DNA of 40,356 nucleotides from a virus, in the IMG/VR virus record IMGVR_UViG_3300036781_000836, positions 1-40,356 of that record; one strand, written 5' to 3'. The notes beneath the pieces are model-generated. The model ran no database searches, was not told the DNA's origin, and saw nothing but the letters and a program-made list of their open reading frames with translations. Made by a program: the position numbers and the translations under genes. Every line of letters begins with the position of its first letter. The first letter of the stretch is position 1. Shown here piece after piece: positions 5,942 to 40,356 of this stretch.

Positions 5942-6220
5942 ATGACGATACGGAAGCTGGTTCTCTCGGTGCACGCGGTCGATGACCTCACCGACCATAA
6001 TGTGAAGCGGTGGCAGGTTCGGGTCACGATGGAAGCGGGTCGCGAATGTGAAGCGGTGACCCATACTGGCGCTGAGACCCGGTTCTCCCGGTGCGCGATG
6101 TTCGGCCGGAAGACGCTCAAAGTGGTCTTCCTACGCCGTCCAGACCACGACCTCATAATCTCAAACCATTGGATCAATCGCCCCACGAAACGGCGGCGGT
6201 TGGAAGGGAAGAAGAAATGA
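5942..6220 (+). CDS. DUF4258-like toxin of a toxin-antitoxin pair
   Basis: This encodes 92 residues. The pattern SVHAVDDLTDHNVKRWQV, MEAGRECE, FSRCAMFGRKTLKVVFLR and HDLIISNHW follows the DUF4258 layout: a His near the N-terminus, a helix, a glycine turn and two closing strands. The fold is related to RelE/BrnT-type toxins, which are ribosome-dependent or free RNases. A basic tail, RPTKRRRLEGKKK, ends the protein. No ribosome site fits between the promoter and the ATG, so translation is probably leaderless. The stop overlaps the antitoxin start (ATGA at 6217-6220), the usual arrangement when toxin and antitoxin must be balanced. Confidence 0.65.
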   Translation: MTIRKLVLSVHAVDDLTDHNVKRWQVRVTMEAGRECEAVTHTGAETRFSRCAMFGRKTLKVVFLRRPDHDLIISNHWINRPTKRRRLEGKKK

Positions 6221-6663
6221 AGGCGACCTACTCTCGCGATGCGGACACGTTCCGCATCGCCCTCGACCTCCGGCCCGGTCCGCTGACGACCGAAGAGAAC
6301 ATTCCGGGAATCCTTGTCGACCGGAACCGGGCAGGGCAGGTCGTCTCGTTCACCGTGCTCAGTGCCTCGGTCACGCTGCCGAAGGGGGTCCTCGATGAAG
6401 TGCCCGAGCCCGAGGACAAGTGGCTCTCCCTCGTCGAGGCGGCGGCATATGCCTCGGCCGAGGGGGAGGAGCTGGCGGCGGCGACCCTGCGCGTTCAGAT
6501 CCACCAGGGCCGAATCCCGGCTGGCGTCCTTCGGAAGGTCGGGAGGGCGACGCAGATCAGTCGGACGGGGCTCGTGAACTATCTGGAGTCGCGCGCGCCG
6601 TCTGGGCGACGGACAAAGCCAGCGCGCAAGCGGGATTCGCGGAGGATTTCTAGCGCGGCATAA
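6217..6663 (+). CDS. DUF2283 antitoxin fused to a helix-turn-helix
   Basis: This encodes 148 residues. Residues 1-50 match DUF2283, usually partnered with DUF4258 toxins: TYSRDADTFRIALD, then ENIPGILVDRNRAGQVVSF and a final strand. Residues 65-125 (KWLSLVEAAAYASAEGEE... IHQGRIPAGVLRKVGRATQISRTGLVNYLES) look like an HTH_17/MerR-type excisionase-like DNA-binding domain. A basic Arg/Lys tail ends the protein. Most DUF2283 proteins are short, so the DNA-binding extension is unusual. It would allow direct autoregulation through the palindrome at 5914-5933. An excisionase role is an alternative, but no integrase is present. Confidence 0.65.
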   Translation: MKATYSRDADTFRIALDLRPGPLTTEENIPGILVDRNRAGQVVSFTVLSASVTLPKGVLDEVPEPEDKWLSLVEAAAYASAEGEELAAATLRVQIHQGRIPAGVLRKVGRATQISRTGLVNYLESRAPSGRRTKPARKRDSRRISSAA

Positions 6664-7935: not shown

Positions 7936-8090
7936 GCCACAGAACTAGCCAAATGCTTGATGCATCATGGGACGGCGTGCAAATGTTGCAACGTTTGCGA
8001 TTCTGCTAGTCGTCGACGGCGAGACGGCCCCTCTCGGGGCCGTTGAAGTTGAGCGCGGGGTGCACCGGGCCGACGGCCCGGCGGTAGGGT
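7936..8090. other. Convergent gap packed with palindromes
   Basis: This gap between convergent operons has no credible gene but holds four symmetric elements. TGATGCATCA (7958-7967) is a perfect palindrome. GCAAATGTTGCAACGTTTGC (7979-7998) has one mismatched pair. ACGGCCCC-tctc-GGGGCCGT (8024-8043) is a strong hairpin, and CCGGGCC-gac-GGCCCGG follows near 8064-8081. The two GC hairpins probably end minus-strand late transcription. The two AT-richer palindromes look like protein-binding sites. Confidence 0.5.
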
Positions 8091-8786
8091 TCATGGGTGC
8101 AGGATACGCTTCACGACTTCGGCGGCCCCGGCAATGCATCCCACAGAGAAGACCTTATTCACGCACGCGCCGGTCGTCGCGGCACCAATCGCGCCGGTCT
8201 CGGCCGCGGATTCCAGCTTCGACCAGGGCGCCGGGACCTTGGCGGCTGCCTTCGCATCGGCGAGCAGCTGCGCCCGCTGGGAGAGTATCAGCGTGGAATC
8301 GGACGAGATGATCGCGCCCAGCTTCACGTTCGCCGCGATCTCCTGCACGTAAGCATCCCGGTAGCTCTGTCTGGCTGAGTCGACCGTCACGAGCTGGCGG
8401 CCGAGCGCGCCGATCTCAGTCCCGAGCGCCGGCACGAGCGAATCCCGATAGATCGCGAACGAATCGAGGGCGCTGCGCGCGGAGTCGAGCAACGCAAACG
8501 CCTTGCGCGCTCGAGCGGCCGCGCCGTCTTTCCCGGCGGAGGCGATCGCGGCCCGTCGATCGAGATCCGCCACTCGCACCGAATCCGCTCGCGCGGCCGA
8601 GTCGCGCTGCGCCAGCTGGAACCGCAGCACGGCGACGGTGCTGTCGTGCGATCGCTGCATGACAGCGAGACTGTCGGCGGATCGCCGCGCCGCCGCGGCC
8701 GCGGCGGAATGACAGATGGCGTAGCCACCCGCGAGTGCAGCGACGACGAGTCCGACGACTGCGAGCGCCTTCTGCCAGGTCGTCAC
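8091..8786 (-). CDS. Spanin-like (Rz-type) membrane coiled-coil protein
   Basis: This encodes 231 residues from GTG 8786, overlapping the stop of the preceding gene. One N-terminal membrane helix (ALAVVGLVVAALAGGYAI) is followed by a long Ala/Asp/Arg/Ser-rich coiled coil (SADSLAVMQRSHDSTVAVL through VDSARQSYRDAY). This is the topology of inner-membrane spanins, which link inner and outer membranes to finish lysis. The C-terminus (GAIGAATTGACVNKVFSVGC) is weakly hydrophobic, unlike typical Rz. No outer-membrane partner is seen nested in another frame. It lies last in the late operon, away from the endolysin. Confidence 0.5.
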   Translation of the reverse strand: MTTWQKALAVVGLVVAALAGGYAICHSAAAAAARRSADSLAVMQRSHDSTVAVLRFQLAQRDSAARADSVRVADLDRRAAIASAGKDGAAARARKAFALLDSARSALDSFAIYRDSLVPALGTEIGALGRQLVTVDSARQSYRDAYVQEIAANVKLGAIISSDSTLILSQRAQLLADAKAAAKVPAPWSKLESAAETGAIGAATTGACVNKVFSVGCIAGAAEVVKRILHP

Positions 8787-9127
8787 CGCGGCTCGCCGGA
8801 CTTGACGAAGATCACGCGTTCATGGGTGATCCGGTCGCCGTCGACGTCGAACACCTGATAGCCGAGCGTGCCGGTGAGCCCGCTGAGGGCCGCGGTCATC
8901 GCCGCGGCATCGCAGATCCCGGAGTATCGCCCCTGCGTGTTGGCGCGCTCATTAAGCGTGACTTGTGTCGACCCGAGCGGCGAATCTCCGATCTGCCGCA
9001 CGAAGTAGCCCGAGACGCCCGACAGCCCGGTCGCGACTTCAGCGTTTCCCGTCGCTGCGTTCTTTCGTCGGGCATCGAACTCAAACTCCCAATCGCTATC
9101 GACCGGCACTTCCTTGCATGCGTTCAT
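8783..9127 (-). CDS. Probable small virion or tail-accessory protein
   Basis: This encodes 114 residues from ATG 9127, overlapping the stop of the LamG/repeat protein (ATGA). The sequence is predicted mostly beta (DWEFEFDARRKNAA, GVSGYFVRQIGDSP, LGYQVFDVDGDRITHERVIFV). The alternation resembles small phage baseplate/tail-fibre accessory proteins of the immunoglobulin-like type. No firm family is recognised. Confidence 0.5.
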   Translation of the reverse strand: MNACKEVPVDSDWEFEFDARRKNAATGNAEVATGLSGVSGYFVRQIGDSPLGSTQVTLNERANTQGRYSGICDAAAMTAALSGLTGTLGYQVFDVDGDRITHERVIFVKSGEPR

Positions 9128-10590
9128 GAGTCTCTCGCAATCAGACGAAGGGACGGGGCGCTCCGGGAGGTCAAGGCGAGCGCCGGCGCCCCGCGATCAA
9201 ACAAGGTGAGTGCGCTCGCTACAGACGGATGGGTCACGGCCGCGGCGCCCATGGTGAGCAGCAGGTCGAGCCCTGCCGGTGCGGCGACTGCCGCGATCCG
9301 GACCGGGCCGAAACTGAGCGCGAGGTCGAGCCCGACGGGATCGAGGATGGTGCCAGATTGCGCCGCGGCGTCCCCAAACCCGAGCAGCAGGTCGAGCCCG
9401 CCGACGTCGATCGTGAACGCGGGCGCCGGCGCGCCGAAGGCGATCGCGAGATCGAGCCCGACGGCATCCTGATCCGTCGCTGCCCTCGCGCCTCCCATTG
9501 CCAGGCCGAGATCCAGGCCGCCGGCGTCGATCACCGCTCCGATCGTCGGTGGTCCGAGACCGAGCGACAGGTCCAATCCCGCGGGATTTGAATGCGCCGA
9601 CACGCTGGGCGCGCCGAGCACCAGGCCAAGATCGAGTCCCGCCGGATCGATTGCCGCCTTGTCCGACGGCGTGCCGAACGCGAGCGCAAGATCGAGCCCA
9701 GCGGGATCGATCGATGCCGCGGCCTTGGTCGTGCCGAACGCCAAGCCGAGATCGAGACCGACAGGGTCTGACGAGTCGGCGACTTTCGGTGTGCCGAGCG
9801 TGAGCGCGAGATCGAGACCGGTGGGCGTGAGGATGAGCGCCGATTTCTTGACCGCCGCGAAGAAGTAGCTGCGCGGTCGCCGCCAGCGATACATCGCCAG
9901 CGGGTCCTTACTGATGCGCTGGATCTGCGCAGGCGTCAGCGCATTGCGCCAGATGGACACCGCGCTGTGGATAGAACCGCCTGTTGATCCAGCCACCTGG
10001 AAGAACGACGTCGACGAATAGCCGTTCGTCGCTCCACTGTTGGTGGCGCTCGTATTGGCGAGCGTGCCATCCACCCAGACGCGATCGGTCGAGGCGTCGG
10101 TGACGCCGACAATCACATGCGATCCGGCCGAGGATGGGAAACTCCCACCGCTATTGACCTGGCGGAACGCGCCCTTGGCATTGTCGAAGGCCCAAATGCC
10201 GCCGGCGGCCCCAAGCGTGGAAACCCAGTAGGACGTGAAGGGGCTGGTGTTTGTGTTGTTGAAGAGGACGCCGGCCCCGCCTGTGGCGTCGCTGACGAAC
10301 GCCCTGAGTCGGACGGCCCAGAGCAGGGTGATATTGACCGGAATGCGTAGAATCGAGGCCGTCGGCAGCGCATTGCTGCTGATGAGATCGGTGCTCGACG
10401 GCGTATAGAGGCCGCCGGGGCCGATCACTGGCGAACCGACTCGAGTGAGTGTGAGCCCCGATGCGCCAGGCCCAACCATCGCTTGCGACTCGGAGACGGC
10501 GAACGGCGTGCCGAGATACAGGCCGTCCCACATCCACCGGTACCGCAGGTCGCAGTCGTCGCGGTGCTGTGCGAAGGGCCTGTTCGCCAT
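9124..10590 (-). CDS. LamG-domain tail-fibre-like protein with ten 20-residue repeats
   Basis: This encodes 488 residues. Residues 1-245 form a concanavalin/LamG-like jelly roll as found in phage tail and surface proteins (VLFNNTNTSPFTSYWVS, HVIVGVTDASTDRVWVDG). It ends in the familiar 'WRNALTPAQIQRISKDPLAMYRWRRPRSYF' type block. Residues about 250-455 consist of ten consecutive 20-residue repeats with consensus DPAGLDLxLxFGxPxxxAxI (one copy is 22 residues). Such strand-turn periodicity suggests an elongated beta-solenoid or stalk. The order, with the LamG head first and the repeats last, points to a carbohydrate-binding virion protein, probably a side fibre or receptor-binding accessory. 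Confidence 0.65.
   Translation of the reverse strand: MANRPFAQHRDDCDLRYRWMWDGLYLGTPFAVSESQAMVGPGASGLTLTRVGSPVIGPGGLYTPSSTDLISSNALPTASILRIPVNITLLWAVRLRAFVSDATGGAGVLFNNTNTSPFTSYWVSTLGAAGGIWAFDNAKGAFRQVNSGGSFPSSAGSHVIVGVTDASTDRVWVDGTLANTSATNSGATNGYSSTSFFQVAGSTGGSIHSAVSIWRNALTPAQIQRISKDPLAMYRWRRPRSYFFAAVKKSALILTPTGLDLALTLGTPKVADSSDPVGLDLGLAFGTTKAAASIDPAGLDLALAFGTPSDKAAIDPAGLDLGLVLGAPSVSAHSNPAGLDLSLGLGPPTIGAVIDAGGLDLGLAMGGARAATDQDAVGLDLAIAFGAPAPAFTIDVGGLDLLLGFGDAAAQSGTILDPVGLDLALSFGPVRIAAVAAPAGLDLLLTMGAAAVTHPSVASALTLFDRGAPALALTSRSAPSLRLIARDS
9225..9840 (-). repeat. Ten tandem ~60-bp coding repeats (GLDL repeats)
   Basis: Ten in-frame units of about 60 bp encode variants of DPAGLDLALAFGTP. The Gly-Leu-Asp-Leu core is invariant except DLAIAFG-type changes after the core, whereas the last six to eight residues of each unit vary freely. 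The DNA repeats are diverged, indicating old expansion with selection on the core. Confidence 0.85.
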
Positions 10591-10593
10591 CAG

Positions 10594-11025
10594 TTACGAC
10601 GCTTCGTCGGTATGCGGATCGATGAAGAGGGTGTTCCCGGTGGCGCCCATCGCCTTCCCCGAGCTGTTGATCACCATCAGTTTGAAATCGCGCGCCGGCG
10701 TCAGGAGGTTGCGGAGCCGAAGTACCTGGGCCGTCGAGACCGCGCGCAGCCGGAAGCTGCCGAGATAGCCATCGCGAGGATAGCCGTTCGTCGTGTCGCT
10801 ATCCTCATAGGTCGTCCCGTCCTGCTGCACGACATAGAGATCGACCGGCGCATCAGCGACGACGGTCGCCGCGAACGCCGCCGAGAGGATGGCGTCGAAG
10901 TAGAGCGCCGCCGGCTTCGTAATCACTCCCGACAGCAATCCACTGCCGCTCGCGAGCGCATTCAGCCCGGCCCCCATGACCGAGATCGGCGAGCCGACAA
11001 CGACTGGACTCAGGTCACTCGCCAT
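10594..11025 (-). CDS. Probable virion structural protein
   Basis: This encodes 143 residues from ATG 11025, in a tight run of late genes. It is predicted beta-rich (SPVVVGSPISVMGAG, AALYFDAILSAAFAATVVAD, APVDLYVVQQDGTTYED) and ends with LMVINSSGKAMGATGNTLFI. This pattern resembles small phage structural proteins that decorate tails or baseplates. Placement between the LamG fibre-like protein and another small beta protein supports a virion role. No family name can be assigned with confidence. Confidence 0.5.
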   Translation of the reverse strand: MASDLSPVVVGSPISVMGAGLNALASGSGLLSGVITKPAALYFDAILSAAFAATVVADAPVDLYVVQQDGTTYEDSDTTNGYPRDGYLGSFRLRAVSTAQVLRLRNLLTPARDFKLMVINSSGKAMGATGNTLFIDPHTDEAS

Positions 11026-11026
11026 C

Positions 11027-11428
11027 TCAGAGCTGAATCATCGCGTGGGTTTCATCCGCCGTCGGCTGCGTGACGGTCACGTCCACGGCGGTGACGTTCT
11101 GCGCGCCGAGATCCTGCTCGAGGACGACGGCGTTGGAATCATTCGTGTCGTACAGCACGCCGTAGCGGAAGTCTGCGCAGGTCAGCGCGGGGAACACCGG
11201 ATCCGCGATGTCCGCATAGCTCTTGTTGGTGCCGGTGGCGTTGACCGCACCGCTCACCGCGTTTCCGCCAGCAGAGTAATTCGTGCCGCTCGCCTCGTGC
11301 GTGACCGCATAGGCGGTCTGACCCGGCGTATATGCCGAGGTCATCAGCGCGTACTTCAGGGCGTGGGCCACGACCTGAATCGAGTTGAGTCCTTTGCGGC
11401 GCTGGGCGGCGCTCATCGTCTGCGACAT
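11027..11428 (-). CDS. Phage structural protein of the 'SGTxYxAGG' type
   Basis: This encodes 133 residues from ATG 11428. It contains YAVTHEASGTNYSAGGNAV, SYADIADPVFPALTC, FRYGVLYDTNDSNAVVL and a final strand. These blocks recur in a widely distributed small phage structural protein (often read as '...EvsGtGYtaGGxaL...aryavlYd...'), usually located near tail-fibre genes. The biochemical role is not established. It is immediately upstream of the previous structural gene in transcription order. Confidence 0.6.
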   Translation of the reverse strand: MSQTMSAAQRRKGLNSIQVVAHALKYALMTSAYTPGQTAYAVTHEASGTNYSAGGNAVSGAVNATGTNKSYADIADPVFPALTCADFRYGVLYDTNDSNAVVLEQDLGAQNVTAVDVTVTQPTADETHAMIQL

Positions 11429-11431
11429 GGC

Positions 11432-11674
11432 TCAGCTCTCCTTCGCGGGCGTGATTTGGAGGCCGACGTGCTTGCGATGCGGCCGCTTCGCCGAACGCCC
11501 GATCACGCCCCATCGATTCGGTCCGAGCGGTTCGAGATGCTGGGCGTCGGTCCCTCGGCTGTGGCCGCCGTCGGCGGAGAACTCGATCGTGGTGCCGTCG
11601 ACGGCGGTCACCGCGTGATCCTCGCCGTCCCATACCACGATGTCTCCGACAGCTGGACTGGTTGCGTTGCTCAT
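11432..11674 (-). CDS. Small SH3-like unknown protein
   Basis: This encodes 80 residues from ATG 11674, overlapping the stop of the polysaccharide lyase (ATGA at 11674-11671), which fixes this start over upstream alternatives. The first 55 residues alternate short strands and turns (VGDIVVWDGEDHAVTAV, GTTIEFSAD) like a small SH3-type barrel. A basic tail, GRSAKRPHRKHVG, follows. Coupling to the lyase suggests co-production; function is unknown. Confidence 0.6.
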   Translation of the reverse strand: MSNATSPAVGDIVVWDGEDHAVTAVDGTTIEFSADGGHSRGTDAQHLEPLGPNRWGVIGRSAKRPHRKHVGLQITPAKES

Positions 11675-14247
11675 GGCATCGTGACCTTCGCGGAATCCGC
11701 GTGAGGGATGGTGAGGTGGGTCGATCCAATCGTCACCGTCGTGGCCGCTGGTCCATCGGCGGCGGTCACCGTGGCTGGCGCGCCCGCGCGGCACTGCAGG
11801 ACCGTCACGAGCAGATCCGTCGCGCGTCCCGCCGGCGGCGAGACCGTCACGGCGTAGCTACTCTGCGTGAAGCCCGGCCCGATGCTGTCAGGCGCGATCG
11901 CAAGCGCCGGCGAGCCGAGCGCGATCGTGCCGAGACACTTCCCGGTGCCGCCATCGTTCGACAGCGTGAAGGTGTTGCCGGCGATCGTCGGTTGGTGATG
12001 CATCTGCCAGCGCCACACCTTCTGCATCGACGGCGTCACCGCGGTCGCCTGGTCGACGACCACGAAGGCGCTGAGCGCGGGCAGGAACGCGACGGTGCGC
12101 GCATACCCGATCGCGATGTTGCGGCCGTTGCCAACGCCCCACGGATGGCCGTACGCATTGCCCGCTTCACCGCGGAGCACCATCAGCGTGTCGGTGAATT
12201 GCTTCTCGGTGATCGCGCCGTCGTTGCCGCCGAAGAAGACCTGGCCGCTGTCGCCGATCGTCAGGGTGTTGTAGTGGCGGCTCGCCTGCTCGATGCCGCT
12301 CGCCGAGTAGAGGTTCGCCGACGCCGTGATCCAGTCGCCGCCGCCCCAGATCATCAGCCCGTTCGCCTGCAGCGAGTTGTGGCCATCACCGACCGCGCCG
12401 GCTTGGAAGGTGAAGGCGAGCGCGTTCGGGTCCGTCCAGCTGGTGCGGCAGACGGCGTAGCCCGGTCCCGCGGCGAGGAAGCACTTCGGCTGCGCCGAGA
12501 GATCCGTCGCCGCCGGCGCGGCCGGATTGAAGTGGATCAGCTCGTCGGTGGCGACCGCAGTGCCGGCATCACTCGAGGGGACGTTGCCGATCAGACCGAG
12601 GAAGGTCTGTACCTGGGCGGCGAGCGTCGGATCGCTGATCGCGGCGAGGACATCGAGCGCGGCGACGCGATCATACGCGTACTCCGCGGCATCGCTCTCG
12701 CGCGCCTGGTCACCGAACGGCGCTTTGAAGCGACCGCCCGGCATCATCGACGCGAAACCCCATCGGAGCGCGTCACCCAACCAGCTGCTCGCGATGGGCG
12801 TCCCGCTGGTGGCGTACGCGTCCGCGAAGCGGCCGAGATACCACTGGCTGCCGGATCCGTAGTTCGTGCCTTCGTCCCACGCGCCACCAGCGCCCTCGCC
12901 CGCGAGATACGGCACGGCGACGAGGTTCCAGTGCTGCATCGCCAGTGCGCGATGATATGCCGGCCGATCGGGACCGCTTACCGCGGTCGTGGTGATGGTG
13001 TCGTCGCCGGCAGCCGCGATCGCCGCCGGGCCCGACATCATGAAGCCCCAGTAGTAATTGTTCGACGGCCAGAGCCCCCAGCCGTTGGCGCGCGACGGAT
13101 TGGTTTCGGGCCAGACCCAGTCGGCGCGATTCATCAGCCAGGTCGCGGCCTGATGGCGCTGCGTGACGGTGAGGCCGGCGTAACACCAGTCGAGCCCCAT
13201 GATGAAGTCGGGCAGGTTGAACCGGTACGCATAGCCCGAATCACCCTGCAGATTGTCGTCCTCCACCGCGCCGCCGGCGATGACGACGCCGGCGCGCGTG
13301 GCATACGCCTGGTTGCCGGTGCCGAGATACACGGCGCACAGCGCGGGCAGTGCGAACTCATCGGCGCCGGTGTAGACGGCACCCCTCGCGACCGACGCGT
13401 CGGCATACTGCTTCACCACCTGCCACCGTGAGGTGTTCGCCGCGGCCTGCGCCTTCAGCTGCACGAGGCGCGCCGGCGTCATCCAGACGCGCGGGTGCGC
13501 CGGCAGCGCCGACGTCAGGAACGGTGGCGGAGGAGGGGGAGCGGGCGGTGGCGATGCCGGCGAGGATCCACCGCTTGAGCTCGATGAGGGTGGGGGAGCT
13601 GGCGGAACGATCGGCGCGGTACCAGCTGGGACGACGTGCTCGGTGTCGATGACGATCGGATGCGTGCCATCGGTCAGCGCGATCGCGATCGTGTCGACGT
13701 AGAACCCGAGCGGCTTGCTGCTGAGATCGATCTGCCAGCGAAGGATCCCGGAGTCATACCCGCCGACATACCCGTTGTACGAGTTGAGCAGCGTCACCCA
13801 GGGCGTCGCCGTGGACGCGACCCATTTATTCGCGAGCGTCTGCGCCTTCGTGAGTCCGAAGCTGTCGACGCTCACCGGCTGGTCGATCGAGACCTGGTGG
13901 AAGGCGTGGCCGAGGATCGGGATCACCGGCACCGGCGCCGAGACGACTGGCGCGCTCAGTGCTGAGCAGTCCCACGTCGTCTTCAGGACGCAGTAGTGAT
14001 TCACCGGCACCGTGTCCGGAATGATCTTCAGCACCGCACCGACCGCGCAGAGCACCGTGCCTGGAGCCGTCGATGGACAGGAGATCGTCGGCACCGCGGT
14101 GATGACCGTCCCCTGCGCACTAGCCGGTGCCACGGTGAGGCAGCCGGACATCAGGACCGCGAGGGCGACCGCGATCCGTCGAACGGGCACCGCCGGCCAG
14201 CGCAGCCCTATGCTGTCCAACATTCGGTAAGCTGACCGGCGATGCAT
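11671..14247 (-). CDS. Exported polysaccharide lyase, heparinase II/III-like
   Basis: This encodes 858 residues from ATG 14247, one base after the holin-like gene's stop. ATG 14223 and ATG 14286 are possible alternatives. A signal peptide is visible (RRIAVALAVLMSGC then APASAQG), with either lipidation at Cys36 or cleavage after ASA. Residues 47-210 are a beta-rich module, followed by a Pro/Ser linker at about 211-243. The remainder has lyase features: an alpha/alpha-toroid start (HPRVWMTPARLVQLK), NNYYWGFMMSGPAAIAAAG, and a C-terminal beta-sandwich with HNSLQANGLMIWGG and SRHYNTLTIGDSG. Such enzymes cleave uronic-acid polysaccharides (alginate, heparinoid or capsule). Export with the lysis genes, rather than tail attachment, is the unusual point. 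Confidence 0.75.
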   Translation of the reverse strand: MHRRSAYRMLDSIGLRWPAVPVRRIAVALAVLMSGCLTVAPASAQGTVITAVPTISCPSTAPGTVLCAVGAVLKIIPDTVPVNHYCVLKTTWDCSALSAPVVSAPVPVIPILGHAFHQVSIDQPVSVDSFGLTKAQTLANKWVASTATPWVTLLNSYNGYVGGYDSGILRWQIDLSSKPLGFYVDTIAIALTDGTHPIVIDTEHVVPAGTAPIVPPAPPPSSSSSGGSSPASPPPAPPPPPPFLTSALPAHPRVWMTPARLVQLKAQAAANTSRWQVVKQYADASVARGAVYTGADEFALPALCAVYLGTGNQAYATRAGVVIAGGAVEDDNLQGDSGYAYRFNLPDFIMGLDWCYAGLTVTQRHQAATWLMNRADWVWPETNPSRANGWGLWPSNNYYWGFMMSGPAAIAAAGDDTITTTAVSGPDRPAYHRALAMQHWNLVAVPYLAGEGAGGAWDEGTNYGSGSQWYLGRFADAYATSGTPIASSWLGDALRWGFASMMPGGRFKAPFGDQARESDAAEYAYDRVAALDVLAAISDPTLAAQVQTFLGLIGNVPSSDAGTAVATDELIHFNPAAPAATDLSAQPKCFLAAGPGYAVCRTSWTDPNALAFTFQAGAVGDGHNSLQANGLMIWGGGDWITASANLYSASGIEQASRHYNTLTIGDSGQVFFGGNDGAITEKQFTDTLMVLRGEAGNAYGHPWGVGNGRNIAIGYARTVAFLPALSAFVVVDQATAVTPSMQKVWRWQMHHQPTIAGNTFTLSNDGGTGKCLGTIALGSPALAIAPDSIGPGFTQSSYAVTVSPPAGRATDLLVTVLQCRAGAPATVTAADGPAATTVTIGSTHLTIPHADSAKVTMP

Positions 14248-14248
14248 A

Positions 14249-14695
14249 TCAGGTCGCGTGCGCCACGACGGCCGGCGTCGAGGCATGGGAGTGGAGTGTC
14301 GAGATCACATGGACGATGAGCGCCACGATCCCCCCGAAGAGCACCTGGACGTCGCCCTTGCCGAGTATCCCCGGATCGCTTGTCTGGATGGTCACATGCA
14401 GCGCCGCGGCGATGGCGGTGAACACCGCGCCGCCCACCGTCGAGATGATGGCGTGCAGCGGACTGGTCGTGATCCATGCCTGCGCTTTGACGAACGCTGG
14501 CCAGACGGCGCCGACGATCGCGGCGATGATGGCGGGGATGATCAGCGAGACGAGACTGCCGGGGTCGGCGCTGCTGCCGCTCGAGGCCGCGGTGTCGGCC
14601 AGCGCGCGGATCCCGTGCGCGATCGGCGCCGCGTGCAGCGGAATGGCGATGAGCACGGCGAGGACGCCGAGCAACAGCGATCGGAGCAACTTCAT
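14249..14695 (-). CDS. Holin-like membrane protein
   Basis: This encodes 148 residues, with an ideal AGGAG 5-6 bases before ATG 14695. An N-terminal hydrophobic segment (LLLGVLAVLIAIPLHAAPI) could be a signal peptide or first helix. Further helices follow at about 48-66 (LVSLIIPAIIAAIVGAVWP), 78-100 (LHAIISTVGGAVFTAIAAAL) and 118-135 (VLFGGIVALIVHVIST). The location directly after the amidase gene and the multi-helix topology support a holin that times lysis by permeabilising the inner membrane. The sequence family is not recognised. Confidence 0.65.
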   Translation of the reverse strand: MKLLRSLLLGVLAVLIAIPLHAAPIAHGIRALADTAASSGSSADPGSLVSLIIPAIIAAIVGAVWPAFVKAQAWITTSPLHAIISTVGGAVFTAIAAALHVTIQTSDPGILGKGDVQVLFGGIVALIVHVISTLHSHASTPAVVAHAT

Positions 14696-14707
14696 GACAA
14701 CTCCTGG

Positions 14708-15250
14708 TTACGCCGCCGCGTTGAACGGCGGACTGGTGAATGCGGCGCGCACAGCCTCGAGCGAGAGCACCGGGCGCAACGGGTTCGAGCCGGTCGGGTC
14801 GATCTTGCGGCCGCGGGGCCACGCCTCGTCGGCGTGGCCGGTGATGCGCCACGGTTCCTTCGCGAGATCCCACGCATGCTGCGCCGCGAGCTGACGGCAG
14901 AGCTCCACCACGGACCGGAACTGCAAGAGCTTGGCGGTCTCGCCATCCTTTGCCGCGATCGCGATCCCATAAAACGCCGAGTTGGCGTCCTGATAGCTGA
15001 GCCGGGCCGAGTCGCTCGGATGGCACACGCCGGCGTGCCACGCCCGCTGCTCGAGCGGCGCGATCTCGTATGCTTGACCATCGTCCAGGACCAGCACGTT
15101 ATAGGAGACTTCGCAGCGCGGATCCTTCGTCAACCACTCGAGGGCGCCGGCGTCGGATCCGCTGTCGTCGTAATGCAGCATGATCCCGACCCGCCGCTGA
15201 CGGAGCGTGTCCCAGCTGTGCGTGACTGGCGCGGTGGGGGCAATGATCAC
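14708..15250 (-). CDS. Endolysin, N-acetylmuramoyl-L-alanine amidase (Amidase_2 type)
   Basis: This encodes 180 residues from GTG 15250, overlapping the previous stop (GTGA) and preceded by GGAG. The Amidase_2/PGRP zinc site is visible: His26 in MLHYDD, His72 in RAWHAG and the C-terminal KIDP of RGRKIDPTG. The substrate-site GHADE precedes that last motif. The enzyme cuts the amide bond between N-acetylmuramic acid and L-Ala of peptidoglycan. The start lacks a signal peptide, so release through a holin is expected, and the holin-like gene follows after 12 bases. Length is typical for a single-domain amidase. Confidence 0.85.
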   Translation of the reverse strand: MIIAPTAPVTHSWDTLRQRRVGIMLHYDDSGSDAGALEWLTKDPRCEVSYNVLVLDDGQAYEIAPLEQRAWHAGVCHPSDSARLSYQDANSAFYGIAIAAKDGETAKLLQFRSVVELCRQLAAQHAWDLAKEPWRITGHADEAWPRGRKIDPTGSNPLRPVLSLEAVRAAFTSPPFNAAA

Positions 15251-15615
15251 GGAAGGTTCTCCGCAGCCTTGCACCGGCTGAGTAGCCCAAGGTCCTTCAA
15301 TCGTTGCGCGGGGCGCCCGTCGCAGACCAGCATGAGGACCGCCCGCTTCCATTCGGCGTCGTCCCGATCGTTGGCGGATTTGTTCATTTCATCGATGTGC
15401 ACGGCGGTCACGGCCGAGTCGATGCGCCAGTTGAGATGATCGGTCTTGATTTCGAGGACCTTGGTGCGATCGCCAGGCGAGATCCAGGTGGCGCCGACGG
15501 CCGACGCGGCCTGCAGTCCGCCGAAGAGGAGCGTGACGCACACGCCGAGCGTCAGCGCGTTGCGCTTTCCTCCGAGAGTTGAAACCAGCTCGCCGACCAT
15601 TTGAGCGGCGCTCAC
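15247..15615 (-). CDS. Single-pass membrane protein upstream of the endolysin
   Basis: This encodes 122 residues from GTG 15615 (ATG 15600 is an equally weak alternative). One membrane helix lies at about residues 19-38 (ALTLGVCVTLLFGGLQAASA), followed by an extracytoplasmic-looking region with two cysteines (MLVCDGRPAQRL, LLSRCKAAENL). It is translationally coupled to the amidase. The position suggests a lysis accessory such as an antiholin, pinholin or spanin-related protein; the sequence does not decide. Confidence 0.6.
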   Translation of the reverse strand: MSAAQMVGELVSTLGGKRNALTLGVCVTLLFGGLQAASAVGATWISPGDRTKVLEIKTDHLNWRIDSAVTAVHIDEMNKSANDRDDAEWKRAVLMLVCDGRPAQRLKDLGLLSRCKAAENLP

Positions 15616-15695
15616 TCAAGCGGTTCCGTCGACGGCCGCGGGATCTTCGGATTGCGCGGGGTTCGCATGGCGGCAAGGTCGCCGCCGGGAGGGAG

Positions 15696-15711
15696 GGGAA
15701 ACAATAAACGC
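15696..15711 (-). repeat. 16-bp element, copy B (after the tail genes)
   Basis: GCGTTTATTGTTTCCC on the minus strand begins 2 bases after the stop of the tail-hub gene, at the head of the lysis module. An identical copy follows the large-terminase stop at 32040-32055. The T-rich word is conspicuous in this GC-rich sequence. The gap 15616-15713 holds nothing else recognisable. Confidence 0.7.
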
Positions 15712-15713
15712 CG

Positions 15714-18452
15714 TCAGCCGCCGACGATCGGAATCCTCCAGTGCGATCCGACGTAGCGCATCAGGTCGCGGATCTGGTCGTCGCGGAGCGCCTGCTGGTA
15801 GATGCCGACTTGGCGAATTGCGCAGGGCGTGAACTCGCGGCGGCTCGAACCATCGAAGCCCGACCCGACGAAGAGCCAGGTGTATGAAAACGCCGGCAGC
15901 GAGGAGCCCAGGTCGTAGCTCACCGACAGCCCATTATTGAAGAGCGTCACCAATCCCCGACCGTCGATCATCTTCCAGCGGGCCGCGAAGATGGACCAGA
16001 CGCCAACGCCGCCCGACACCGGGGAGGTGCCGGACGGCGTGCCGCCGGGGAGATCCACACCGTATTCGATGCCGTCCCGTCGAGTCCGCATGCCCGATGG
16101 TGTATCCGCCGGCAACTTGGCCACCGAAGGGCCGGAGGTGTCGTTGTGGCTCGGGTCGCCGAGCGAAAGGATCGTCCGCGTCCCGGTCCCGATCGCGGCG
16201 CGCGCCACGATGAAGGCGGTGAGCTCCGTCCCGGTGTACGCCGTCATGCCGGTGACGCCCATCCCCATCGCCGAGCCATCGAACTTGACGTACGGCAATC
16301 CATCGCCGTCGTCGGAGAAGAACGTCGGCCGCGCGGATCCGGACGCGGTCAGATCGAGCCCGTTGCCGGACTGATCCGCCCACAGCGGGACGGGGTTGTT
16401 GTTCGCGAGCCCGATCCCCGCATCCGCCGAATAGAGCTGTGACAGCGCGATCGTCGTTCCCGGACCCTTCACCCCGAATCCCGGCAGGACCGGTGTGTTA
16501 TCCGTGGCGGTCGTTGAATTGACCACCGGCACGGTGCCGATCGTGCCGCCCGTGCCGGTCAGCGAGGATACGGAGCCGCCGCCGCTCGACTGCGTCGTGA
16601 ACCGCGGCACCTCCGAGGAGAGCTGCACCTTCGTTTGCGTCGGGTGCAGTTCGTCGGTGTCGACCTGGAGAATGGGGAGGGACTGATCCAGCGTCCCCAT
16701 GATCGGCCGCAGCCTCCGACCGGGCAGGATGACGTCGTTCGGGTATCGGGCCAGATTCTGCCGGGCGCGATCGATGACGTTGATTGAATAGCTGCTGGCC
16801 GCGTCCCGAGTTGCCTGCAGTTCTAGATTGGCCGCGTGAATCAGCCGATTCGGCCCGCAGCCGAAGGTCACATCGATGCTATCGGTGCCGTCGCCGTCGA
16901 CGAATTCACACCGTTCGATATAGAGAGGAAGACCTGCATTGCCGCCGTTGAATCCGCAGATCCTGACGCCGGCAGTCCACGCACCGAGCGTTTCGGCGGA
17001 TTCATCGACCGTCAGCGTGAACCATTGATAGTTAGTCAGCGGAACGTCGCTGATCGAGAAGATCTGCCAACTCCATCCGCGCGCCGTCTGAATCCCGAGA
17101 TAGAGGCTGTACGGGTAGCCGGTCGGAAAGAAGACCCGAACCCTCACCGTCCATACATGATTCCGCACGGCCCACGGCATTGGCCATGTCTGCTGGATTG
17201 CGGCATCTGGCTTGCCCTGTGCCGACGCGAGCTGCTTGACGGCGAAGACGCCTGGCGGCTGCTCGATGTTTGTGGTGTTCGTTTCCTGCGTGATCGTGCC
17301 GGCGGTTCCCCATCCGACGTCGGCATGAGTCCAGTCATCCGGCAATCCGGCGGTCCAGTTGTCGAACTTGGCGTTCCGGATCCAATTGATCCGGCTCACC
17401 GAATCGGTCACGGTGAGATAGTCGGCCGAGGTGAAGACGTTGCCGGGATCAGTCCAGACGACCTTACGCTTTCCGCTGCTATCGCGGGCCAGCCCCACGC
17501 GATCGCCGACCGAAAGGCCGGTGGCGCTCGACACCGTCACCGTCTGGGTTGCTGCCACCGATGCCGTGATCGCGTGACAGGTCACACCGTCCGCTTCGAC
17601 GATGTAGTCGCCGTCGAGCTGGTCGTCGAAGCCGATCGGTACGCCATCAGCCGCATCGTCCCACGATGCGAGCGTGACATCGCTGCCGCTGATCGCGGTA
17701 ATCACGAACCAGCAGCTCGCCGTGGTGAGGCCGTTGCCATCAGTCGGGAGCAATTGCGTGATGCGGTTGATTTGGCTTTGTCCGACGAGGATCGAGCCCA
17801 TGTTCTTCGCGAGGCCAGCGGTAATCGGAGTGTCGCTGAACGAATACCGGATGCTCAACGCCCACTGCGTACTACTCTGCCGCTCGAAGAAGAAATACGA
17901 CAACGGATCGGAGGGACCGATGCGCGACCCGTTGATCGCGTCGACCAGGGCGAGAATCGCCTGCAGCCCGTTGCCGCCGCTCACCGTCCATTGGGGAATC
18001 GGCCACGTCGGTTCCACCGTTCCCCGAACCACCCAACTCGGCATCCGCGGCAGGAGATAGGTGTCGATGATCTGGGCGGCGGTGAGGCCGATCGCCGTCG
18101 CGGTGAGCAGGACGTCGTCGCCGGCCTCCACGACAATCAGGGACTGGCGCTTGAGTAGTATCCTGGGAGGTGCCGCAGTGAGCGTGATTACACCGCTGGG
18201 ACGCGTCCGATCCCACGTCAGAATCGGCCACTCCTCGATCGCACCGTTTTCCCGGCGCAGCTGCAGACACTGGGACAGCGGCAACCAGGTCTCGGCATCG
18301 AAGGTCGACGGGAGCGTCGCATCGAGGCTGTCGTCGCCGTCCTGACGTTCCGTGGTATTGAGGGCGATCCACCGAGGGATGCCCCGCAACACCGTTCCAC
18401 CGTCTGCGATGAGCTTGTCGGAGAGATATCCACCAACCGTCAACGCGGGCAT
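15714..18452 (-). CDS. Tail hub / tail-tip protein with carbohydrate-binding modules
   Basis: This encodes 912 residues, overlapping the distal tail gene by one base. The N-terminal 340 residues resemble the hub-type first domain of siphovirus tail-tip proteins (PRWIALNTTERQDGDDSL, PLSYFFFERQSSTQWALSI). Residues about 355-515 look like a CBM4/9-type jelly roll (NAKFDNWTAGLPDDWTH ... GNAGLPLYIERCEFVDG). After a Ser/Thr/Gly linker, residues about 690-912 form a LamG/concanavalin domain (WADQSGNGLDLTASG ... AIRQVGIYQQALRDDQI). By position it follows the distal tail gene, as the hub usually does, and probably also contacts host glycans. No peptidoglycan hydrolase motif is evident. Confidence 0.7.
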   Translation of the reverse strand: MPALTVGGYLSDKLIADGGTVLRGIPRWIALNTTERQDGDDSLDATLPSTFDAETWLPLSQCLQLRRENGAIEEWPILTWDRTRPSGVITLTAAPPRILLKRQSLIVVEAGDDVLLTATAIGLTAAQIIDTYLLPRMPSWVVRGTVEPTWPIPQWTVSGGNGLQAILALVDAINGSRIGPSDPLSYFFFERQSSTQWALSIRYSFSDTPITAGLAKNMGSILVGQSQINRITQLLPTDGNGLTTASCWFVITAISGSDVTLASWDDAADGVPIGFDDQLDGDYIVEADGVTCHAITASVAATQTVTVSSATGLSVGDRVGLARDSSGKRKVVWTDPGNVFTSADYLTVTDSVSRINWIRNAKFDNWTAGLPDDWTHADVGWGTAGTITQETNTTNIEQPPGVFAVKQLASAQGKPDAAIQQTWPMPWAVRNHVWTVRVRVFFPTGYPYSLYLGIQTARGWSWQIFSISDVPLTNYQWFTLTVDESAETLGAWTAGVRICGFNGGNAGLPLYIERCEFVDGDGTDSIDVTFGCGPNRLIHAANLELQATRDAASSYSINVIDRARQNLARYPNDVILPGRRLRPIMGTLDQSLPILQVDTDELHPTQTKVQLSSEVPRFTTQSSGGGSVSSLTGTGGTIGTVPVVNSTTATDNTPVLPGFGVKGPGTTIALSQLYSADAGIGLANNNPVPLWADQSGNGLDLTASGSARPTFFSDDGDGLPYVKFDGSAMGMGVTGMTAYTGTELTAFIVARAAIGTGTRTILSLGDPSHNDTSGPSVAKLPADTPSGMRTRRDGIEYGVDLPGGTPSGTSPVSGGVGVWSIFAARWKMIDGRGLVTLFNNGLSVSYDLGSSLPAFSYTWLFVGSGFDGSSRREFTPCAIRQVGIYQQALRDDQIRDLMRYVGSHWRIPIVGG

Positions 18453-39735: not shown

Positions 39736-39808
39736 AGCTCCCGGCCCGAATCGAACGGGCGACCTGCGCGTTACGAGTGCGCTGCTCTACCGACTGAGCT
39801 ACAGGAGC
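39736..39808 (-). tRNA. tRNA-Thr (anticodon CGT)
   Basis: The minus strand folds into a full cloverleaf of 73 bases. The acceptor is GCTCCTG/CGGGAGC (one G-U), the D arm GCTC/GAGC, the anticodon loop CTCGTAA with anticodon CGT, and the T arm GCCCG-TTCGATT-CGGGC. The base pair next to the anticodon loop is an A-C mismatch. The CCA end is not encoded (TCA follows the discriminator). ACG is a codon typical of GC-rich genes, so the tRNA probably boosts late translation. It lies only 19 bases before a protein start, suggesting processing from a shared transcript. Confidence 0.9.
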
Positions 39809-39879: not shown

Positions 39880-40356
39880 TCAGCTGACCGTGATCCCGAT
39901 CGACGCCGAGGTGGACTTCGTCGTCGCCGTGATGGTGGCCGATCCGGTCGCGACCGCCGTGACGACGCCATTGGCATCGACCGTGGCGATCGAGGTGTCG
40001 CTCGAGCTCCAGCTGACGACCGACGAGCCATCGCTGGCGCTGCCGGTGAGCTGACTGGTGTCGCCCGCGTTGAGCGTGGTGTTGCCGCCGAGGGTGAGCG
40101 TCGGCGCCGGCGGAGCCGCCGGGGTTCCTGCCACGATCGCCGCCGCGAACGGCGCCGCATGGTCCCGCATGATCTGGACTTCGGTTCCCATCAGCTGCTT
40201 GAGCGTCGCGAGATCGGTGGCCGCCTGTACGCCGGCGGCGATCCGGTCGGCGAATCCATTGATGAGCGTCGTGCCCGAGTCCTCGAGCCCGACCGTGGCG
40301 TTCACTTCGTCGACCAGATCCTGCGGCGTGCTGTCCTGCGCCTGCGTGTCATCCAT
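39880..40356 (-). CDS. Ig-like (Big_2) domain protein starting at the window edge
   Basis: The 158 residues start at an ATG that is the last codon of the window, so any upstream part is not visible. Residues 1-70 are helical (LINGFADRIAAGVQAATDLATLKQLMG), a type of N-terminus seen in small phage proteins carrying Ig-like domains. After a Pro/Ala hinge, residues 82-158 match Big_2/BID_2: LTLGGNTTLNAGDTSQLTG, VVSWSSSDTSIATVDANGV, VTAVATGSATITATT. Big_2 domains on virions bind cell surfaces or glycans weakly. The distance from structural genes is unusual. If the ends join, the frame is continuous with the gene at 291-1. Confidence 0.75.
   Translation of the reverse strand: MDDTQAQDSTPQDLVDEVNATVGLEDSGTTLINGFADRIAAGVQAATDLATLKQLMGTEVQIMRDHAAPFAAAIVAGTPAAPPAPTLTLGGNTTLNAGDTSQLTGSASDGSSVVSWSSSDTSIATVDANGVVTAVATGSATITATTKSTSASIGITVS

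Follow-up and report, generated by a model that had tools for sequence, protein, structure and literature searches.

A predicted exported lyase of the heparinase II/III clan in the lysis block of a Gemmatimonadota prophage

The stretch of DNA analysed here (the window; 40,356 nucleotides) is most of a prophage integrated in a Gemmatimonadota bacterium. It corresponds to positions 17-40372 of C8, a 150-kb contig of the host genome, on which bacterial genes, including those for ribosomal protein S14 and UvrA, start after about position 41000. At C8:41015-41050, 36 consecutive bases repeat without mismatch a segment from the 3' half of a tRNA-Asn (GTT) on contig C4. Phage-type genes (DNA methylase, HNH) flank this tRNA gene on one side; on its other side a subunit of bacterial DNA polymerase III is encoded. 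On the simplest interpretation, the phage integrated in tRNA-Asn and its prophage is divided between C4 and C8 (G000:C8:41015-41050 and G000:C4:8606-8679, L074). The ORF adjoining the tRNA resembles a tyrosine recombinase by eye and had no match in Pfam. A C-5 cytosine DNA methylase is encoded at L074:1143-2888, in the part of the prophage on C4; the window itself also contains a tRNA-Thr (cgt) at 39736-39808 and a protein with a Big_2 Ig-like domain at 39880-40356.

The genes for Dit, tape-measure, major head, protease, portal and terminase proteins lie upstream of the lysis block on the same strand. The features of the block are given below; L001 denotes the corresponding region of a second phage, which is part of a 60.5-kb IMG/VR contig and of which 22.6 kb were compared with the window.

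15709..15727, minus strand: terminator-like hairpin separating the lysis genes from the tail genes (consensus match only)
14708..15352, minus strand: endolysin, Amidase_2 (family match, E 3.3e-21)
14249..14695, minus strand: holin-like membrane protein, stop one base ahead of the lyase start; 77% identical in L001
11671..14247, minus strand: gene for the predicted exported lyase, 858 aa
11432..11674, minus strand: 80-aa gene, start overlapping the lyase stop (ATGA)
8091..8786, minus strand: putative Rz/spanin-like protein with a single N-terminal hydrophobic helix; 57% identical in L001

The lyase ORF, with its ATG at 14247 and its stop at 11671, is a real gene: its GC3 is 0.85, and comparison with L001 (89% identity) gives a dN/dS of 0.10. 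Purifying selection on it is strong, with the lowest ratio in the lyase domain (0.075). An alternative in-frame ATG upstream, at 14286, would yield a protein of 871 aa; the start at 14247 is kept in L001, likewise one base past the holin-like stop. In the window, this junction reads CTGATATG. At its other end, the lyase gene overlaps the start of the 80-aa gene by four bases. The preliminary description had placed an 858-residue protein with a signal peptide directly after the holin-like gene and coupled it to a small SH3-like gene. Position and coupling are borne out, while 'SH3-like' is unproven, the 80-aa product having only a sub-threshold CHAP match in Pfam.

The holin-like protein has 148 aa and about four hydrophobic stretches by hydropathy. 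A family search returned no match for it, and the label derives from its topology and its position beside the Amidase_2 endolysin; the same type of search gave no match for the spanin-like protein, which is encoded further down the block. A consensus scan, a weak test in Gemmatimonadota, found no sigma-70-like site in 8000-16000. The block after the lyase also encodes a LamG-like protein (9124-10590), with a score just under the Pfam cut-off. The N-terminal half of this protein shares 73% identity with its counterpart in L001, and the C-terminal half is built of successive repeats of the DPAGLDLALAFGTP type.

The lyase itself has a composite layout, with a predicted signal peptide followed by three further segments.

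14140..14247, minus strand: signal peptide with lipobox LMSGC (Cys36), by pattern match and hydropathy
13618..13824, minus strand: BACON-like domain, about aa 142-210
13513..13597, minus strand: Pro/Ser-rich linker, from sequence
11671..13515, minus strand: predicted heparinase II/III-clan lyase domain, aa 245-858 (614 aa), by a chain of profiles

Residues 1-41 are basic and hydrophobic, with an Arg-Arg pair and a hydrophobic stretch at residues 22-41. A PROSITE-style pattern finds the lipobox AVALAVLMSGC at residues 26-36, both in the window lyase and in L001; a possible signal-peptidase-I site (ASA↓Q) follows immediately. The same pattern is found in four of six host relatives and, by eye only, in a fifth (L003, LSGC). 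The window lyase, with signal peptide, lipobox and Cys, fits a predicted bacterial lipoprotein, and the export signal claimed in the preliminary description is present by these sequence measures.

The BACON-like domain matches five repeats of a subtilase (L021, genome G006) that carries BACON_2 (PF19190), with E values from 8.5e-4 to 0.06; a Pfam search with this region of the lyase returned no match. The subtilase, at L021:33-3293, has about five BACON-like repeats. A weak N-terminal match in G006:C13 was set aside, as it is located in a doubtful ORF.

The lyase domain is less easily placed. The protein is not recognised by Pfam, NCBIfam or PHROGs, phmmer yielded nothing usable, and PF07940 matches neither the window protein nor L001 nor the host relatives in Pfam. 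Heparinase II belongs to PL21, and the wider heparinase II/III-type lyases include PL12, PL15, PL17 and PL35, with Pfam family PF07940. A profile built from eight relatives of the domain (A1) retrieved heparinase II/III chains as its only matches in the PDB, and these were weak (E 0.009 to 0.75). It also retrieves proteins from another family of Gemmatimonadota; among ten such intermediates tested, PF07940 was matched by five, by four of them above the cut-off. Aligned with hhalign against an alignment of the retrieved proteins (A3), A1 gave 99.9% probability and E 1.3e-31 over 561 columns. A3 in turn matches HepII structures with E 2.8e-68, as well as PL15, PL12 and PL35 chains. Because of this chain, from A1 through A3 to the HepII structures, the domain is assigned to the heparinase II/III lyase clan in two profile steps, not by one direct match. 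The earlier label of a heparinase-II/III-like lyase is supported in this way, though below all Pfam, NCBIfam and PHROGs thresholds. AlphaFold models from four-row alignments (pLDDT 29.5 and 36) were too poor to use; the helix-then-strand order in these models would be compatible with the alpha toroid and beta-sandwich of the clan fold.

Three residues are candidates for a catalytic role.

13057..13059, minus strand: Asn397, candidate active-site neutraliser, invariant in A1
12859..12861, minus strand: Tyr463, candidate catalytic base/acid, invariant in A1, in a GGxWxEGTxY motif
12379..12381, minus strand: His623, candidate, aligned through A3 with the HepII active-site His

Only His623 is linked to HepII by alignment, namely to the first His of its HQH motif, which we take to be His406 in the published numbering; Asn397 and Tyr463 are put forward by conservation and motif only. 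All three are retained in both phage lyases. The equivalent of His623 is missing in one relative (L019), and the position of the zinc-binding His of HepII is unconserved in A1.

The two phages in question are the only known carriers of the gene. The order of holin-like and lyase genes is kept in L001. Within its 22.6 kb, matches to the window are limited to the products of these two genes, to three proteins encoded downstream and to one from the opposite strand. No match to the window was found for the other genes of L001 in this stretch, tail genes included. That the holin-like protein and the lyase are common to both phages and the tail genes are not argues against a tail component; the lysis block with its lyase appears to move between phages, the lyase not being bound to one tail. 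A plus-strand protein of DUF2283/HTH type (window 6091-6663) is 88% identical in the otherwise different L001.

Relatives were searched for in ten genomes of the host genus and in a sample of 100 genomes from the phylum. Close relatives of the lyase domain are confined to the host genus (four of the ten genomes); elsewhere in the phylum sample only distant ones occur. In all three other genomes with the domain (G001, G004 and palsa_1233/G009), the copy lies within loci for polysaccharide synthesis and export. The neighbours vary among polysaccharide ABC exporters, a Wzx-like flippase, glycosyltransferases, a deacetylase, a UDP-GlcNAc epimerase and a nucleotide-sugar dehydratase. The terminase and the holin-like protein of this phage are absent from these three genomes, and their lyase copies are therefore not in this phage.

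This picture is complicated by the second copy in the host itself (contig C25; 66% identical), which lies between tRNA-Ala and tRNA-Gln, outside any polysaccharide locus. This lyase (L006:9962-12700) is a likely lipoprotein with a different N-terminus. In a tree, the two phage lyases join the C25 copy (89/95) and are nested in the host clade. From this nesting, it is likely that the phage captured the lyase from the host genus and acquired a new N-terminus, a direction that we infer. The preliminary description had suggested descent from a bacterial carbohydrate-utilisation locus. Kinship to a bacterial gene holds; the type of locus does not, as the nearest relatives are found mostly in exopolysaccharide (EPS) or capsule synthesis and export loci. 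Their location there makes the capsule or EPS of the host itself the likely, predicted substrate.

A role in lysis can be outlined from these observations. A temperate Gemmatimonadota phage would have taken a lyase from its host genus and inserted it into the late lysis operon, so that it is made alongside the holin. Before the inner membrane is breached, as holin accumulates, Sec would export the lyase, which, probably lipid-anchored, would cut host capsule or EPS at the envelope. Holin, amidase and spanin-like protein would then act, and the progeny would not be trapped in polymer. Lipidation, late expression, activity, substrate and lysis role are all predictions from sequence and gene order. 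This reading is favoured because holin-like and lyase genes are one base apart, the lyase overlaps the next gene, an Amidase_2 endolysin lies beside them, and the relatives in the host genus adjoin polysaccharide synthesis and export genes. Also in its favour are the profile chain to HepII/III structures, the nesting of the phage lyases in the host clade, the low dN/dS, the lipobox and the differing tail genes of L001. It is weakened by the location of the C25 copy, the candidate His missing in one relative, the unconserved zinc-site His, the poor models and the small number of phages, two, known to carry the gene. That a lipidated lyase co-expressed with the holin cuts the host's own coat before lysis is, on balance, a proposition with as much for it as against it.

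Since the element is an integrated prophage, the protein may instead act in the lysogen: expressed from the prophage, the lipoprotein would trim or remodel the host coat, depriving competing phages of receptors or altering attachment and spread. A lipid anchor fits such a lasting surface role, and other phages, such as lambda with Bor, encode lysis-adjacent outer-membrane lipoproteins active in the lysogen. However, there is no space for a promoter between the holin-like gene and the lyase, the lyase gene is tightly coupled on both sides, and the scan of 8000-16000, weak as it is in this phylum, offers no sigma-70-like site. Lysogenic conversion, the main rival, is regarded as unlikely, if well worth considering.

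Phage lyases are usually tail-borne, and a virion-associated depolymerase for entry, like ordinary tailspike lyases, was also weighed; the LamG-like protein downstream, just below its cut-off, would suit it. This tail-fibre reading was put low and seems improbable: the protein has a signal peptide and lipobox, is placed after the holin, and stays 89% identical in two phages whose tail genes, within the 22.6 kb compared, are unrelated.

The housekeeping lyase AlgL clears periplasmic alginate and is encoded in a synthesis and export locus, the setting in which the host relatives are found. By analogy, the phage enzyme, which if lipidated may face the periplasm, could remove polymer that builds up there as the cell dies, letting endolysin and spanin act. 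The proposed role is set above this one only because the external coat is the larger barrier; periplasmic clearing is considered quite improbable. A catalytically inactive or passenger protein, at most polysaccharide-binding, would agree with the unconserved zinc-site His and the candidate His lost in one relative, but is very improbable in view of the purifying selection, highest in the lyase domain, and because both phages retain the candidate Asn, Tyr and His.

Beyond this prophage, it may be proposed, tentatively, that some phages of capsulated diderms carry a fourth lysis function, in which an exported, host-derived lyase opens the capsule from inside. With similar reserve, such a function would add to the inner-membrane, cell-wall and outer-membrane steps, the lyase coming from the host's polysaccharide locus. 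Phage capsule enzymes are known as tail-borne entry tools. If the lyase is exported before lysis and derives from a coat-making locus of the host, it would be a testable case of the capsule as a recognised barrier to phage exit; it also points to an enzyme for the little-studied coats of Gemmatimonadota.

Phage lyases of the heparinase II/III type look rare in the collections searched. INPHARED held no record matching the window lyase, and no PHROGs family matched it or four HepII/III test members. A different HepII/III protein gave three matches in INPHARED, all short unannotated fecal scaffolds, one of them marked UNVERIFIED; an IMG/VR scan for HepII/III relatives with two patterns only gave none. 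Limited searches of INPHARED, PHROGs and the literature found no exported lyase of this clan coupled to a holin, and no report of a phage HepII/III-type lyase encoded within a lysis region was found in the literature searched.

Several known systems share features with the lyase. It resembles HepII/III-type lyases in its full-length profile match through A3, in the helix-then-strand order of the poor models and in the alignment of His623 with the HepII active-site His. It differs from them in scoring below every library threshold, in the lost zinc-binding His position, in being encoded in the lysis region of a phage, and in carrying a lipobox, a BACON-like domain and a linker. The chromosomal lyases of the host genus (L003, L018, L019, L004 and L005) are 48-65% identical in the lyase domain and mostly have a lipobox; however, they carry other N-terminal domains and lie mostly in polysaccharide synthesis and export loci with no holin neighbour. 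Phage depolymerases of capsule and EPS are virion-associated tailspike lyases (PMC6116005). Like these, the window lyase is phage-encoded and expected to cut host surface polysaccharide; unlike these virion-borne enzymes, it is encoded in the lysis block with a predicted export signal. Secreted phage endolysins are also known, such as Lys44 of fOg44 (PMC6116005). With Lys44 and lambda Bor, the lyase would share the export of a lysis-region phage protein via host Sec; those two act on peptidoglycan or in the lysogen, whereas the protein described here is a predicted polysaccharide lyase.
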